From: a virus
Direction: 5' to 3' (one strand)
IMG/VR virus record: IMGVR_UViG_3300020197_000087
Span: 1 to 33,699 of that record
Length of the DNA: 33,699 nucleotides
Made by a program: the position numbers and the translations under genes. Below, piece by piece: positions 17,574 to 22,643 of the stretch (within the stretch, counting starts at the first letter, position 1; every line of letters begins with the position of its first letter). The notes under the pieces were generated by a model. The model was not told the DNA's origin, ran no database searches, and saw only the letters and a list, made by a program, of their open reading frames with translations.

Positions 17574-17854
17574 GCCAGCCTTCAAGCGTGGCGGAGGCCC
17601 TGCAGGGGTGGCCAAACCCGGCCACGGTGCTGGCTCATGCCGACCGGGCGCTGGAGGGCCTGCAGCGGGCAGAGGAGCAGGTGGAGGAGCTGCGGGCGCT
17701 GTGTAGCCCAGCGAGCGAGGATCCCGCCGATCCTGGTCCTGTTGGCTCTGCCGGCGTGCTGGAGAACCTCGGGCGTGCTCGGCAGAAGATTCTCGCGTGG
17801 GCAGACACCGCCGCCGCTGCGGTTCAGGCGCTGAGCCCCCCCAGCAGCCAGTAG
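17570..17854 (+). CDS. Coiled-coil hypothetical protein
   Basis: A 94-residue protein from GTG 17570 (GTGA overlap with the gene before). It is Ala/Glu/Leu-rich with a heptad-like stretch (Ala-Leu-Glu-Gly-Leu-Gln-Arg-Ala-Glu-Glu-Gln-Val-Glu-Glu-Leu), a Pro/Asp break, then a second helix and a Pro-Pro-Ser-Ser end. It is followed at once by a strong terminator. It could be a structural partner of the OB-fold protein; its function is unknown. Confidence 0.5.
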   Translation: MSQPSSVAEALQGWPNPATVLAHADRALEGLQRAEEQVEELRALCSPASEDPADPGPVGSAGVLENLGRARQKILAWADTAAAAVQALSPPSSQ

Positions 17855-17885
17855 GGACGGGGGATCTGCCCGTCAAGCCCCAACC

Positions 17886-17919
17886 GCCCCCGGTGCCGCC
17901 ATGGTGCCGGGGGCTTTTT
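17886..17919 (+). terminator. Rho-independent terminator
   Basis: Stem GCCCCCGG / CCGGGGGC with a 13-nt loop, followed by T5. It ends the 17071-17854 operon just before the iteron region. Confidence 0.88.
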
Positions 17920-17928
17920 GCCGGCGGC

Positions 17929-18240
17929 CTGTCACTACCTGTCCCTACCTGTCCCTACCTGTCCCTACCTGTCCTGAGAGGTAGTGACAGCTTAAAACCA
18001 TTGCGCCGGAAGCGATCTCGGGCCTGTCACTACCTGTCCCTACCTTTTATAGAAGAAGAAATAGATAAGGGGAAGAGGAAGGGGGAGAAAAGGGCTTATA
18101 TACGAAAAAGGTAAGGACAGGTAGTGACGCCCCCCCCCCTGGCACAGAAAAACCCTGCCATAGACAGGGTTTACAGCCGTCACTACCTGTTGAGACAGGT
18201 AGTGACGGGGTAGGGACAGGTAGGGACAGGTAGGGACACC
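17929..18240. other. Candidate replication origin: iterons around a purine/AT tract
   Basis: The 10-bp unit CTACCTGTCC recurs in tandem at 17936-17975 (four copies) and once or twice near 18029-18045. It occurs in reverse orientation near 18112-18127 and three times at 18209-18238. Flanking units carry CACTACCT or AGGTAGTGAC. Between them, 18048-18110 is purine-rich and AT-rich (a possible unwinding element). At 18178-18209 there is a 14-bp perfect inverted repeat with a TGAG loop. The region has no gene, and it lies beside the AEP-primase/helicase gene. No experimental support is available here. Confidence 0.6.
18148..18171 (-). terminator. Rho-independent terminator of the primase-helicase operon
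   Basis: Minus-strand stem AACCCTG / CAGGGTT with a 7-nt loop, followed by T3-5, about 80 nt downstream of the helicase stop. It lies inside the iteron region. Confidence 0.7.
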
Positions 18241-18250
18241 TGGCGCCTCG

Positions 18251-20503
18251 CTAACCGCCCCCCTGGCTCTCCAGATACCAGCGCCAGGCCTTGACGCCAT
18301 CCACGCGGACTTGCCTCCTGCTCCATCCGTGAGGGCTGAGGATGCCGCCGACTTCCATCTGGTCTGCTCTGGTCTGACGGTCGATCGGCTTGTCTATGGC
18401 TTCTGTCAACACGTCAGCAGACGTGAAACCTGGCTGATTGCCTCGCAGCTGCAACCAGCGGAGGACAGCAGGCGTCCAAACGGACTCAATTCGATATAAA
18501 TCATTTTCGGTTTCAATTTTCTCTTCCAATTCAGAAGGCAGATAATTATGTGCGCCTTTCCTGTACTCTGCCATTGCACCAGCCCAAAGAGAGTCCCTCT
18601 GATTTGCCAACGTGTCACAATCAATAGGACAAGTCTTTGTGCAAGTTGTAGGAATGACCCAGAATCGCCTAGATCCTGTATCATCTAGCAAAAATCCATC
18701 TTTTCGATTAGTTGAACCTACGATAATTCCCCTTCTTGGAAAGGTGTTGGTTGCTTTTCCATAGGGGACCCGAAAAACATCAGAAGATTGTGATAAGAAG
18801 TTTTTGATCTGCCCCGCATGGCGGCGGCCCATGATGTGGTCTAGCTCTGCCCACTCCATAATCCAAGAGCGGTGAAGGATCATCAGGTCATCTTTGCTGC
18901 TGATGTCTCCAAGGCCATCAGAGAAGAAAGGCCCGCCAAGAATGCGCCAGAATGTAGATTTTCTAGCGCCTTGAGCACCTAGCAAAACACAGGCCGTGTC
19001 GTGTTTCCATCCAGGCTGAAAGGCCCTCTGCACTGCGCCGATCATGGTGCAGCGAATCATGTGATCATACAAAGTGGGATTGTCCAAGCCTTCTTGAGTG
19101 TTAGGCCTTAGATAACCACTCGCAATTCCTCCGATGTATTCAGGTTCACAATTATTCTCGCACCATTCTAAGTATTCTCTAACAGGATCATAAGGATTTT
19201 CTTTTGCCACTTCAACTAAGCAGTCAAGAGCAAGATCCTTGCTTGCTTTAATTCCAACTTGCGCGAGCTTAAGATAGTATCTATCACTGCCTTCTATTTG
19301 CTTTTCATTAAGCTCAATATTTTGCGTAAAAGTATTAAATCTTAAGCCTCCTTTTTGCCTGAGAAGTGTAAGCAATTCACCAGCTTCAACTTTCAGTGGT
19401 TTGGCTGTTGTGCCACCTTCTGGGGGCTCCGGCACCGGGGGGGGCGCCGTCGTGCCGGGATCTGCCGTCACGGGGCGGGGCTGAGGGCGCGTGTCGGGCG
19501 ATTGTTGACGCCGATGAATCCATGCCAGCCGGTTGGGCCAGCCTGGGTCAGGCGTCCGAGCCGTGCCGGTTGCGGATCGGATGGTGGCGGCAATCTCCTG
19601 ATCGTCCAGAGGTGGGGAGCACCGCGAGGCGAACGCGTGCAGGAGCTGCTCCAGAGTCCCATCAACGCGGAGGCCCTCGGCGACAGCGGCGGGAATCAAC
19701 GCGTGCGCCGTGGCGGCCAGTCGGAAGGCGTCAGCATTTCGGCTGCCGCTGGGGGCTCCTGCTGCGGCCAGGAGCCTGAGGGATCGGGGCAGGAGATCCT
19801 CCAGCGCCACGGTCTGAAAGCTGCTGATCGTTCCCGCCGGTGCCGCCGGTGCCGGTGCCGGTGCTGGTGGTGCTGGTGGCGGTGCTGCTGCTGGTGGCGT
19901 CTCTTCTGGCGAGACGAGCTCGTCAATGTCCTCAGGCCAGTAGCGGCTGCCGGTTTCGTTGATGATTCGTGCCACCCCTGCGGAAGTTCCATAGGCTCGG
20001 AGGTAGTGGCTGCCCGGGAGGCGCATGACGCGCGAGGGGTTGCAGCAGGAGCGGTCTGATTTGCAGTGGGCGATCAGGCGGGATGTGATGGCCCGCCAGT
20101 GATCAGGAGCAATGGGCCGATGAAGCACCCAGTAGCAATGAACGCTTTTCCCGCCCGTGGCCACCATGAAGGTGGGCTCTGGCAGCCTCAGCTCCCGCCA
20201 AGCATTTTGCTGCCAGGGGATCGGCCGGTCATCCCACTCAACAAACAGCGCCGGAACGTCAGTGATCGAGCGGTCCAGATCGCCGCCGTTCCCGACGACC
20301 ATGTAGCAGCCACGACCTTCGGTTTGCCATGAGTTGAACAGGCGGTTAGAGAAACCGCCTTTGCGGCCTCGATCGCGTGCCTTGTCCGGATGGCTGGCGG
20401 GGAGGAAAGCCCGAAACCGCGCGGTTCTGGTGTCTTTGTCCAGCAGCTCAAGGAAGCGGGTGACTTCTGAGATGTCCACCGCCAGGGAGGGGGCGGCCAC
20501 CAT
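18251..20503 (-). CDS. AEP primase fused to VirE-type (VapE) helicase
   Basis: A 750-residue replication protein. Residues 60-200 are an archaeo-eukaryotic primase/RepB-like domain: Ala-Leu-Phe-Val-Glu-Trp-Asp-Asp (85-92, metal ligands) and Gly-Gly-Lys-Ser-Val-His-Cys-Tyr-Trp (117-125). After a Pro/Ala linker comes a PriCT-like segment (255-312, ending Asp-Asp-Gln-Glu-Ile-Ala-Ala-Thr-Ile-Arg-Ser). Residues 370-720 are a virulence-associated-E SF3-type ATPase: Walker A Gly-Ala-Gln-Gly-Ala-Arg-Lys-Ser-Thr (509-517), Walker B around Met-Glu-Trp-Ala-Glu-Leu-Asp (549-555) and Thr-Gly-Ser-Arg-Arg-Phe-Trp (609-615). It probably opens and primes the adjacent origin. It follows the 51-residue RHH-like gene with a TAATG overlap. 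Confidence 0.88.
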   Translation of the reverse strand: MVAAPSLAVDISEVTRFLELLDKDTRTARFRAFLPASHPDKARDRGRKGGFSNRLFNSWQTEGRGCYMVVGNGGDLDRSITDVPALFVEWDDRPIPWQQNAWRELRLPEPTFMVATGGKSVHCYWVLHRPIAPDHWRAITSRLIAHCKSDRSCCNPSRVMRLPGSHYLRAYGTSAGVARIINETGSRYWPEDIDELVSPEETPPAAAPPPAPPAPAPAPAAPAGTISSFQTVALEDLLPRSLRLLAAAGAPSGSRNADAFRLAATAHALIPAAVAEGLRVDGTLEQLLHAFASRCSPPLDDQEIAATIRSATGTARTPDPGWPNRLAWIHRRQQSPDTRPQPRPVTADPGTTAPPPVPEPPEGGTTAKPLKVEAGELLTLLRQKGGLRFNTFTQNIELNEKQIEGSDRYYLKLAQVGIKASKDLALDCLVEVAKENPYDPVREYLEWCENNCEPEYIGGIASGYLRPNTQEGLDNPTLYDHMIRCTMIGAVQRAFQPGWKHDTACVLLGAQGARKSTFWRILGGPFFSDGLGDISSKDDLMILHRSWIMEWAELDHIMGRRHAGQIKNFLSQSSDVFRVPYGKATNTFPRRGIIVGSTNRKDGFLLDDTGSRRFWVIPTTCTKTCPIDCDTLANQRDSLWAGAMAEYRKGAHNYLPSELEEKIETENDLYRIESVWTPAVLRWLQLRGNQPGFTSADVLTEAIDKPIDRQTRADQMEVGGILSPHGWSRRQVRVDGVKAWRWYLESQGGG

Positions 20504-20658
20504 TAGCGGTTGAGCGCTGGGGAGGGGGCGGCCATGGCGCGGTCGATGGCGTCGCGGATGACGGCGGCCATTGGTCGGCCGGGCTGTGACTGGGTGCGGA
20601 TCCAGTCGCGCTGATCGGGCCTGAGGTGGACGAGTGTGGGCTGCATCCGCTGGGCCAT
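20503..20658 (-). CDS. Small ribbon-helix-helix-like protein
   Basis: A 51-residue protein from ATG 20658 (MAQRMQPTLVHLRPDQRDWI). A short strand (Pro-Thr-Leu-Val-His-Leu) precedes two helices (Arg-Pro-Asp-Gln-Arg-Asp-Trp-Ile and Met-Ala-Ala-Val-Ile-Arg-Asp-Ala-Ile-Asp-Arg-Ala). This is the CopG/Arc ribbon-helix-helix layout, in which the strand inserts into the major groove. It overlaps the primase start by 1 nt, so it may regulate replication. In front of it lies TATACA-like sequence. Confidence 0.65.
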   Translation of the reverse strand: MAQRMQPTLVHLRPDQRDWIRTQSQPGRPMAAVIRDAIDRAMAAPSPALNR

Positions 20659-20683
20659 GGCACCTATATAGGGTATGTATAGG

Positions 20684-20944
20684 TTAGCGCATGCCCTGGC
20701 CGCCGTCGCCGTCGCCGTCGCCGTCGCCGCCTGCCGGTGGGCGCCCGGCCCGTTCCTGCTGTCCCCGAGTTGACCGTCGTTTCCAGGGGGGCTCATCGGC
20801 ATCCCACTGAGCCATGGCGTCAGCCACCAAAAACCGTACAAAGCTGTCACGCGAGAGGCCCCCTAACTCCATCCGCATCTGGTCAATCCACTGGCGATGC
20901 TCGTCTGTGATCCTGACGATGGTGGATGTTTTTCGGGTGGCCAT
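20684..20944 (-). CDS. Ribbon-helix-helix DNA-binding protein, probable repressor
   Basis: An 86-residue protein. Residues 5-50 are Arc/CopG-like: strand Ser-Thr-Ile-Val-Arg-Ile-Thr, helix Asp-Glu-His-Arg-Gln-Trp-Ile-Asp-Gln-Met-Arg-Met, turn with Gly-Gly-Leu-Ser, then Arg-Asp-Ser-Phe-Val-Arg-Phe-Leu-Val-Ala-Asp-Ala. A basic linker and a Gly-Asp repeat tail follow, the tail coded by a GGCGAC-type microsatellite at 20699-20727. Its start lies 20 nt from the iterated operator at 20964-21002, so autoregulation and control of the divergent plus-strand genes is likely. RHH proteins bind such short tandem sites as cooperative dimers. Confidence 0.75.
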   Translation of the reverse strand: MATRKTSTIVRITDEHRQWIDQMRMELGGLSRDSFVRFLVADAMAQWDADEPPWKRRSTRGQQERAGRPPAGGDGDGDGDGGQGMR

Positions 20945-20963: not shown

Positions 20964-21002
20964 GTGTAGCATCATGCTGCATCATGCTGCATCATGCTAC
21001 AC
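20964..21002. promoter_or_regulatory. Iterated palindromic operator O1
   Basis: Three tandem GCATCATGCT units with a 10-bp period, bounded by GTGTAGCAT and its inverted partner ATGCTACAC. TACACT at both ends could serve as -10 for divergent promoters. A two-unit version (GCAACATGCW) lies at 27474-27502. The 10-bp period puts each unit on the same helix face, as expected for ribbon-helix-helix binding. Confidence 0.8.
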
Positions 21003-21044
21003 TCTGGGCTATGGGGGATCTCTCCCCCTCCTGCTCACCCGCTC

Positions 21045-21180
21045 ATGGATCACATGGCGCGAATTGTTCGCGGCGGCTCTTGGTTCAACGATCCTCTCGA
21101 CTGCCGCTCGGCTTACCGCTTCAGTAGCCACCCGGTCGTCCGCAATCAGGCCAGGGGTTTTCGCGTCTGTTGCCTCTCCC
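21045..21180 (+). repeat. Variable cassette 1 (upstream, in frame with the FGE gene)
   Basis: An ATG at 21045 opens a frame reading Arg-Ile-Val-Arg-Gly-Gly-Ser-Trp-Phe-Asn-Asp-Pro-Leu-Asp-Cys-Arg-Ser-Ala, later Gly-Phe-Arg-Val-Cys-Cys. This is the C-terminal variable strand set of an FGE-sulfatase/C-type-lectin fold. No stop separates it from the FGE core start at 21213, so a 532-residue fusion is possible. It is most like cassette 8 (22645-22776), sharing most conserved bases. No hairpin or slippery heptamer accompanies it. Confidence 0.75.
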
Positions 21181-21212
21181 AGTCACGCCAAATCTTCACT
21201 CGCATTTCCCCC

Positions 21213-22643
21213 ATGACTGACTTTTCCAACCTGATTTCCATGGTTCAGGTCCCCGCCGGATCGTTCCTGATGGGCTCGCCGCCAGATGAGAAGGGGCGCT
21301 ACGCCGATGAAGGACCCCAGCATGAGGTGACGCTGGAGAGCTTCCTCATGGGCCGCACCCCTATCACACAAGCGCAGTGGCGGGTGGTGGCAGAGGAGCT
21401 GCCGATGGTGATGGGGGTGCTGAACCCTGATCCGAGTTTGTTTAAGGGCGACGATCGCCCTGTCGAGAAGGTGAGCTGGCACGACGCCGTGGAGTTCTGC
21501 GCCCGCCTGAGCCAGGCCACAGGTCGCGCCTTTTCCCTCCCTAGCGAAGCCCAGTGGGAATATGCCTGCCGAGCAGGCACTACCACGCCGTTTCCCTTCG
21601 GGGAAACGATCAGCCCGGAGCACGCCAACTTCAACTCAAATGCCACCACGCCCGTGGGGCAGTACTCCGCCAATGCCTGGGGCCTTCAGGACATGAACGG
21701 AAATGTCTGGGAATGGTGCAAAGATCACTGGCACGACTCGTACAACGGGTCTCCTGCCGATGGGAGCGCTTGGGAAGACTGCCTGGGAAAGCTTTCAGGC
21801 GCCTCAGGCGCGGCGGCTCCTGGTTCGACCTACACCGCCTCTGCCGCTCGGCCTGCCGGCGCAGCTACCACCCGGCCAACCTCATTGACTTCGTTGGGTT
21901 CCGCGTCTCTGTCTGTTGCCCAGGATGACACCCTGGGAAAGTACGTAGGCGCCTCCTTCGCGGCGGCTCCTGGTTCTACGAGCCCAACAACTGCCGCTCG
22001 GCCTCCCGGCTCAGGTGCCGCCCGGCCGTCCTCAGCGGCAACGTTGGGTTCCGCGTCTGCTGCCCAGGATGACTGCCTGGGAAAGACACCAGGAGCCTTT
22101 TGCGCGGCGGCTCCTGGTTCTACGAGCCCAACAACTGCCGCTCGGCCTCCCGGCTCAGGTGCCGCCCGGCCGTCCTCAGCGGCAACGTTGGGTTCCGCGT
22201 CTGCTGCCCAGGATGACTGCCTGGGAAAGTCCTCAGGCGCCTTTTGCGCGGCGGCTCCTGGTACGGCGGCACTCGCGACTGCCGCGCCGCCTACCGGGAC
22301 AGCGATCACCCGGCCAACATCGGCGCCAACGTTGGGTTCCGCGTCTGTGTCTGTTTCCCAGGATGACTGCCTGGGAAAGCCCTCAGGCGCCGCCTCTTGC
22401 GCGGCGGCTCTTGGTTCTGCGGTCCTCTCGACTGCCGCTCGGCTTCCCGCTACGGGTTTCACCCGGACAACCGCGATCGGGGCTTGGGGTTCCGCGTCTG
22501 TGTCTGTTTCCCAGGATGAACGCATCCTGCGCGGCGGCTCCTGGGAATTCGGCGCTCCCCGCTTCTGCCGCTCGGCCTTCCGGAACGGCGCCCACCCGGC
22601 CGACATCGACGCCAATGTTGGGTTCCGCGTCTGCCTCTCCTGA
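21213..22643 (+). CDS. FGE-sulfatase / C-type-lectin-fold variable protein
   Basis: A 476-residue frame from ATG 21213; the frame is open upstream to 20994. Residues 1-189 are a formylglycine-generating-enzyme-like core: Val-Pro-Ala-Gly-Ser-Phe-Leu-Met-Gly-Ser, Pro-Ile-Thr-Gln-Ala-Gln-Trp, Pro-Val-Glu-Lys-Val-Ser-Trp, Leu-Pro-Ser-Glu-Ala-Gln-Trp-Glu-Tyr-Ala-Cys-Arg-Ala-Gly and Asp-Met-Asn-Gly-Asn-Val-Trp-Glu-Trp. Residues 190-433 are a repetitive Ala/Pro/Ser/Thr linker made by reading cassettes 2-6 out of frame. Residues 434-476 are cassette 7 in frame (Arg-Ile-Leu-Arg-Gly-Gly-Ser-Trp). DGR target proteins use this fold to bind ligands. Slippage at GGGAAAG sites would give shorter forms ending in cassettes 2-6. 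Confidence 0.8.
   Translation: MTDFSNLISMVQVPAGSFLMGSPPDEKGRYADEGPQHEVTLESFLMGRTPITQAQWRVVAEELPMVMGVLNPDPSLFKGDDRPVEKVSWHDAVEFCARLSQATGRAFSLPSEAQWEYACRAGTTTPFPFGETISPEHANFNSNATTPVGQYSANAWGLQDMNGNVWEWCKDHWHDSYNGSPADGSAWEDCLGKLSGASGAAAPGSTYTASAARPAGAATTRPTSLTSLGSASLSVAQDDTLGKYVGASFAAAPGSTSPTTAARPPGSGAARPSSAATLGSASAAQDDCLGKTPGAFCAAAPGSTSPTTAARPPGSGAARPSSAATLGSASAAQDDCLGKSSGAFCAAAPGTAALATAAPPTGTAITRPTSAPTLGSASVSVSQDDCLGKPSGAASCAAALGSAVLSTAARLPATGFTRTTAIGAWGSASVSVSQDERILRGGSWEFGAPRFCRSAFRNGAHPADIDANVGFRVCLS
21812..21928 (+). repeat. Variable cassette 2 (-1 frame)
   Basis: In the -1 frame this reads Gly-Gly-Ser-Trp-Phe-Asp-Leu-His-Arg-Leu-Cys-Arg-Ser-Ala-Cys-Arg, later Val-Gly-Phe-Arg-Val-Ser-Val-Cys-Cys-Pro-Gly-stop. 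The stop is the TGA at 21926-21928. Fused by slippage to the core it would complete a 238-residue protein of normal FGE-domain length. Confidence 0.8.
21962..22072 (+). repeat. Variable cassette 3 (-1 frame)
   Basis: Gly-Gly-Ser-Trp-Phe-Tyr-Glu-Pro-Asn-Asn-Cys-Arg-Ser-Ala-Ser-Arg, ending Val-Gly-Phe-Arg-Val-Cys-Cys-Pro-Gly-stop. It is identical over its full length to cassette 4, 144 bp downstream, which points to a recent tandem duplication. Confidence 0.85.
22106..22216 (+). repeat. Variable cassette 4 (-1 frame, identical to cassette 3)
   Basis: Same sequence as cassette 3 from Gly-Gly-Ser-Trp to the TGA and on through the next GGGAAAG. Only the short stretch between heptamer and GGSW differs (ACACCAGGAGCC in place of TACGTAGGCGCC). 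Confidence 0.85.
22250..22366 (+). repeat. Variable cassette 5 (-1 frame)
   Basis: Gly-Gly-Ser-Trp-Tyr-Gly-Gly-Thr-Arg-Asp-Cys-Arg-Ala-Ala-Tyr-Arg, ending Phe-Arg-Val-Cys-Val-Cys-Phe-Pro-Gly-stop. Here Ser of the Cys-Arg-Ser-Ala motif is Ala. Confidence 0.8.
22403..22519 (+). repeat. Variable cassette 6 (-1 frame)
   Basis: Gly-Gly-Ser-Trp-Phe-Cys-Gly-Pro-Leu-Asp-Cys-Arg-Ser-Ala-Ser-Arg, ending Gly-Phe-Arg-Val-Cys-Val-Cys-Phe-Pro-Gly-stop. The heptamer-to-GGSW gap is one codon longer than in cassettes 2-5. Confidence 0.8.
22533..22643 (+). repeat. Variable cassette 7 (frame 0, terminal)
   Basis: Arg-Ile-Leu-Arg-Gly-Gly-Ser-Trp-Glu-Phe-Gly-Ala-Pro-Arg-Phe-Cys-Arg-Ser-Ala-Phe-Arg, ending Val-Gly-Phe-Arg-Val-Cys-Leu-Ser-stop. 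It is in the same frame as the core, so it is the default C-terminus if no slippage occurs. Confidence 0.85.

Follow-up and report, generated by a model that had tools for sequence, protein, structure and literature searches.

The gap at 17854-18251 of the analysed sequence is very probably where phage replication begins, at an origin of the 'pri-rep-ori' type known from SaPIs and PICIs, which would be bound and melted by the adjacent primase-helicase. This assignment draws on sequence, structural modelling and analogy with known systems, and was supported by the repeats, symmetry and core of the region, by a matching arrangement at the 3' end of the primase-helicase gene in related phages, by covariation of the iterons with the C-terminal domain of the primase-helicase and by a full-length match of the helicase part to PriRep1. 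The original prediction of an iteron origin beside its initiator was therefore retained as the best reading and refined to a SaPI/PICI-type origin located 3' of a self-loading VapE helicase.

Genome context of the iteron region

The sequence analysed, referred to here as the window, is 33,699 bases long; it is a viral record from IMG/VR and is related to Synechococcus phage S-LBS1. The left part encodes a lambda-type large terminase (GpA-type), a lambda-family portal and a head maturation protease, and the right part carries replication and recombination genes. This gene content suggests a complete-looking tailed phage with its own packaging genes. PICI satellites need a helper phage for virion proteins; no such dependence was apparent in the window, where terminase, portal and head protease genes are all present, and it was classed as a phage carrying a PICI-type replicon and not as a PICI. 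Cyanobium records were among the named chromosomal relatives, and hence a picocyanobacterial host is likely. The gap is bounded by convergent genes, one ending at 17854 (+) and the primase-helicase gene ending at 18251 (-). Upstream of the latter gene are two overlapping small RHH-looking open reading frames (ORFs; 20503-20944, minus strand) and, at 20994-22643, an FGE-sulfatase-type gene followed by a repeat array (21773-22519). This array consists of about five copies, 80% alike, of a 144-bp unit, each of which encodes a variant of an RGGSW...CRSA...GFRV C-terminal segment with shifting frames. From its sequence the array looks like a cassette array or a diversity-generating target; no reverse transcriptase was noticed.

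Sequence and symmetry of the iteron region

In the region from 17926 to 18240, a GTC(C/A)CTACCTGT element was repeated about 12 times, with ten exact copies and two copies that had one mismatch. Exact copies of GTCMCTACCTGT were located on the plus strand at 17931, 17941, 17951, 17961, 18026 and 18179 and in reverse orientation at 18117, 18195, 18216 and 18226, while the one-mismatch copies were at 17977 (-) and 18036 (+). All matches in the 33.7-kb record were confined to the gap, and a backwards version of the pattern, used as a control, gave no matches with the 15-mer and one in the one-mismatch search. The features of the region and its borders were as follows.

17886-17919, plus strand: intrinsic terminator of the convergent gene ending at 17854, from the terminator scan
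17926-17975, plus strand: left outer array, GTCACTACCTGT followed by three GTCCCTACCTGT at 10-bp spacing
17977-17988, minus strand: inverted iteron with one mismatch (minus-strand sequence GTCACTACCTCT)
17993-18020, plus strand: spacer resembling the AAACC..TTGCGCTGCA box of some relatives (8/10 match in the window)
18024-18047, plus strand: left inner iteron pair at the core border, second copy degenerate
18048-18108, plus strand: polypurine core, 84% purine and 38% GC, proposed unwinding element; same core type in relatives
18109-18128, minus strand: right inner iteron pair in inverted orientation, with 96% complementarity to its left counterpart
18149-18172, minus strand: hairpin AAACCCTG..CAGGGTTT with T's after it on the minus strand, pairing in the fold; possible terminator of the primase gene, absent from the terminator scan output
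18177-18208, no strand assigned: 14-bp perfect hairpin formed by two head-to-head iterons (arms 18177-18190 and 18195-18208, 4-nt loop)
18209-18238, minus strand: right outer array, three inverted iteron units at 10-bp spacing, 100% complementary to 17940-17969
18251-20503, minus strand: AEP primase-polymerase/VapE helicase of 750 amino acids, proposed initiator, with a predicted C-terminal winged helix at about residues 677-744

The 10-bp spacing within the arrays corresponds to one helical turn. Over 30 bp, the right array (18209-18238) is a perfect inverted copy of the left array (17940-17969), and inner arms of 23 bp (18026-18048 and 18106-18128; 96%) bracket a 57-bp core. No other 46-mer in the window was as purine biased as one in this core, at 18049, which was 93% purine. 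The two sets of iterons flanking an AT-rich melting region that define the PICI arrangement were present, the core having a GC content of 38% compared to 57% for the window. Folding of the region as a single strand was far more favorable than that of shuffles (z score of -13.7), as expected because the arrays are inverted. No RNA family was matched in an Rfam search, no sigma-70-type promoter was found in the region, no DnaA box (TTWTNCACA, ≤1 mismatch) was found in 17855-18250, and the GC skew had no clean switch at 18 kb.

These results bear out the main elements of the original prediction while altering several details. The iterons were far above chance: within the 400 bp surrounding the primase stop, the top 7-mer count was 10, whereas 100 dinucleotide shuffles averaged 2.3 and never exceeded 3. 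The region was free of genes from 17926 to 18240, and the predicted 14-bp perfect hairpin was present. The repeats start at 17926 and not at 17929. An arrangement of direct iterons on the left and reversed iterons on the right holds overall but for an extra inverted copy at 17977 and an extra direct copy at 18179, and the core, described as purine/AT-rich, is purine-rich but, at 38% GC, not simply AT-rich. The primase-helicase does adjoin the region, with its stop (18251) and not its start abutting the array. The statement that the repeat was not a known one was fair, since L089 was the sole other viral contig in which the exact iteron doublet was detected, yet the repeat belongs to a family of related iterons. 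In L089 (4700-5700), the arrays were in the opposite order and followed an HNH-like gene.

Properties of the proposed initiator

Only 13 bp separate the end of the array from the primase stop, placing the probable origin immediately 3' of the gene for its proposed initiator. The 750-amino-acid protein matched the Pfam VapE-like_dom family (8.7e-61) and also PriCT-1, its AEP domain was most like the PrimPol of cyanophage S-2L (6zp9; E value of 5e-37) and its nearest named phage relative was that of S-LBS1, with 60% identity over the helicase part. A structure of the helicase was predicted from an alignment that left out S-LBS1 (pLDDT of 86; pTM of 0.82). This model matched SaPI PriRep1 (7pds) over its full length, with a Foldseek E value of 2.6e-21 and a Z score of 28 over residues 1 to 376, compared to much lower Z scores of 14 for NrS-1 and 13 for SaPI5; PriRep1 was also matched by phmmer (E value of 1e-22). 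The C terminus was predicted to contain three helices and two strands in the order H-H-H-E-E, a winged-helix arrangement, and hence the protein has the predicted features of a VapE/Rep-type self-loading AAA+ helicase with a C-terminal winged helix. The DnaA boxes and RepA-family initiator of an iteron plasmid (RepA type) origin were not found, the initiator being of the VapE type, and the absence of DnaA boxes from the gap is in keeping with a self-loading initiator.

Conservation of the layout in cyanophage relatives

Relatives were drawn from the best 80 related viral contigs together with the window, S-LBS1 and S-2L, and 57 nonredundant origins were kept. A repeated 7-mer in the 400 bp at the primase stop exceeded all 100 dinucleotide shuffles in 41 of the 57 loci, including the window, and these 400 bp were the best repeat interval of the locus in 30. 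The other 16 relatives failed this strict exact-7-mer test, although several still exhibited degenerate iterons by eye; the cluster in S-2L was weak and nonsignificant (P = 0.085). The iteron varied among phages (GTAGGGCA, TAGGAACA, GGTTGGAC, GGTTGGCA and AGGTTGGG, among others) while retaining an AGGTNGG theme. Iteron-like sites occurred at 27 per kb at the origin and 10 per kb elsewhere, with higher levels at the origin in 54 of 56 loci. Sites flanking an automatically chosen core were oriented alike (-+) in 35 of 55 loci, some of the exceptions being purine runs scored as sites, and the most purine/pyrimidine-biased 46-mer of the locus was in the origin region in 50 of 57. A G-quadruplex pattern was detected in 36 of the 57 origins and in 9% of control windows; this enrichment was dropped as evidence because G-rich iterons alone suffice to produce it.

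Other short elements were observed near the iterons. The AAACC..TTGCGCTGCA box, AAACCCCTTGCGCTGCA, adjoined the inner iterons in some relatives (for example, L064, L066 and L074; 17993-18020 in the window) and is possibly a host-factor site. A match of at least 9/10 to this box was present in 25% of the relatives' origins compared to 8% of control windows. A short conserved element (GGAAACTCTCTAAGGA or GTTTTCCTGCCTCCTAAG) was found beside the core, between the G-runs and the right iterons, in L009, L013, L030 and L045. The S-LBS1 record (L007, 7146-7551) breaks off inside another copy of some 125 bp from the origin, which may be an artifact of assembly at the repeats.

Covariation of iterons with the C-terminal domain

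Among 50 loci, iteron distance correlated most strongly with distance in the C-terminal domain (residues 675-750), the Mantel correlation being modest and the iteron measure alignment free (Spearman coefficient of 0.22; P = 0.002). This signal persisted after control for the AAA+ domain (0.20; P = 0.002) or the AEP domain (0.21; P = 0.002), while the AAA+ and AEP signals were nonsignificant when controlled for the C-terminal domain (0.05, P = 0.12, and 0.07, P = 0.06, respectively). Iteron sequence thus tracks the C-terminal domain better than the primase or AAA+ domains. SaPI Rep and SCCmec Cch2 are reported to recognize, through their C-terminal domains, repeats that immediately follow the genes encoding them (PMC7581432), and PICI origins comprise two iteron sets around an AT-rich region 3' of rep, deletion of the ori having lowered plasmid maintenance (PMC6092414).

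By homology and layout, a sequence of binding, melting and a bidirectional start can be proposed. The C-terminal winged helix of the primase-helicase would bind the iterons as duplex DNA and, as the literature on related proteins suggests for both binding and double-hexamer loading, two hexamers would assemble, one per inverted array. The hexamers would be moved onto the polypurine core that separates the arrays, the core would melt and the AAA+ rings would travel outward in both directions. The fused AEP domain would prime, and perhaps extend, synthesis, and DnaA would not be used.

The covariation also bears on an unlikely alternative in which the iterons are template-recognition sites of the AEP primase, like 5'-TTTGGTTA-3' for the NrS-1 polymerase, and not helicase sites. 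NrS-1 PrimPol initiates at particular motifs, among which GTG(A) was subsequently identified (PMC8718748), the NrS-1 genome has two central copies of its 8-nt site (PMC7102993), the window iteron contains GTGAC, and the C-terminal region of NrS-1 is structurally related to the window helicase (Z score of 14). However, iteron sequence follows the C-terminal domain and not the AEP domain, and about ten copies at 10-bp spacing are more readily explained by cooperative binding to duplex DNA than by priming on a single strand. The two roles, helicase binding and AEP template recognition, could coexist.

The original prediction had also named RHH proteins as potential binders, and it is very unlikely that the repeats are operator or partition sites for the small RHH-like proteins encoded upstream of the primase. 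Although two RHH-looking ORFs are present in the window and S-LBS1, L045 and L063 each have one as well, a Pfam search detected no RHH domain in the window ORFs, and five inspected relatives (L009, L013, L029, L036 and L069) have the iteron cluster without an RHH-like ORF upstream of the primase, which weakens this alternative. Operators would not be expected to have a polypurine core between inverted arrays, and the lack of a sigma-70-type promoter in the region also argues against them. A convergent-gene terminator or a packaging or recombination region, with tandem repeats arising from slippage, is extremely improbable: the gap does lie between convergent genes and has terminator hairpins inside it, but position and symmetry are the same in many diverged phages, in which the iterons are altered in sequence yet internally uniform.

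Occurrence of the layout beyond cyanophages

A 2018 study reported this layout only for small phage-parasite islands. Phage records encoding a VapE-type protein were sampled, and of these 17 records, 11 had a significant repeat cluster straight after the stop and 6 did not. Clusters followed the VapE-type stop in Marinobacter PS3 (GGGGTGA, 8 copies), Bacteroides Bacuni_F1 (CGTTTAC, 11 copies), Paenibacillus AJG77 (10 copies), Enterococcus AE4_2 (10 copies), Staphylococcus 2638A, Streptococcus Javan150 and Fusobacterium phiPaco, and also in the Streptococcus satellite Javan724, which served as a satellite-phage comparison. In APSE-7 (L105), a putative origin is annotated upstream of the VapE-type gene, and a seven-copy GTACCAA cluster lies directly after the stop. 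Across 66 nonredundant bacterial-genome loci, repeats peaked only in the helicase-stop bin, where 30% had at least 5 copies compared to 0 to 11% in other bins. Many alphaproteobacterial chromosomal VapE genes had no repeats after them, and hence the 3' location of iterons is not universal in the VapE family. These sequence comparisons suggest that the layout is common to complete tailed phages of several bacterial phyla. Searches of open-licence papers, to which earlier notice elsewhere would be invisible, yielded no match for a VapE-type protein, iteron and phage together and, among the papers containing both words, no title or abstract describing a cyanophage iteron origin.

Taken together, it seems reasonably probable that iteron and C-terminal winged helix change together, such that a recognition code could be obtained from natural pairs, and that the PICI replicon may derive from such phages or the reverse. 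If the origin assignment is correct, a large group of primase-polymerase phages, including the S-LBS1-related cyanophages, would gain a specific origin and initiator, origins of uncultured phages could be sought by the simple rule of looking just after the VapE-type helicase gene, and dozens of natural initiator-iteron pairs would be available for examining how these winged helices read DNA. The assignment would also bear on the source of the replicon of satellite islands.

Comparison with known systems

The closest likeness is to the pri-rep-ori of SaPIs and PICIs (SaPI PriRep1 and EcCICFT073), with which the window shares an AEP and VapE-type helicase, an origin immediately 3' of the gene and two iteron sets around a melting region; the structural model also matched PriRep1 over the whole helicase part, including the predicted C-terminal winged helix. 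In contrast to these satellites, the window has its own packaging and head genes, its polypurine core is strand asymmetric and contains G-runs, its AGGTNGG iteron family is specific to its clade and its AEP domain most resembles that of cyanophage S-2L. SCCmec Cch2 is likewise a helicase with a C-terminal domain that recognizes repeats located right after the gene encoding it (PMC7581432) but belongs to a different helicase subfamily (SaPI5 Rep type), with only three 5-nt iterons and a separate polymerase, CCPol-MP. The NrS-1 polymerase is likewise a phage PrimPol with a ring-forming and structurally related helicase region, but by its published description the genome has only two copies of an 8-nt site (PMC7102993). 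A term search of the S-LBS1 paper (PMC6157547) found no mention of an origin or repeat in the text covered. The S-LBS1 record differs from the window in its iteron (CTRCCYAACC) and in ending inside duplicated origin sequence, but it encodes a primase-helicase 60% identical over the helicase region and has the same origin layout after the stop codon.
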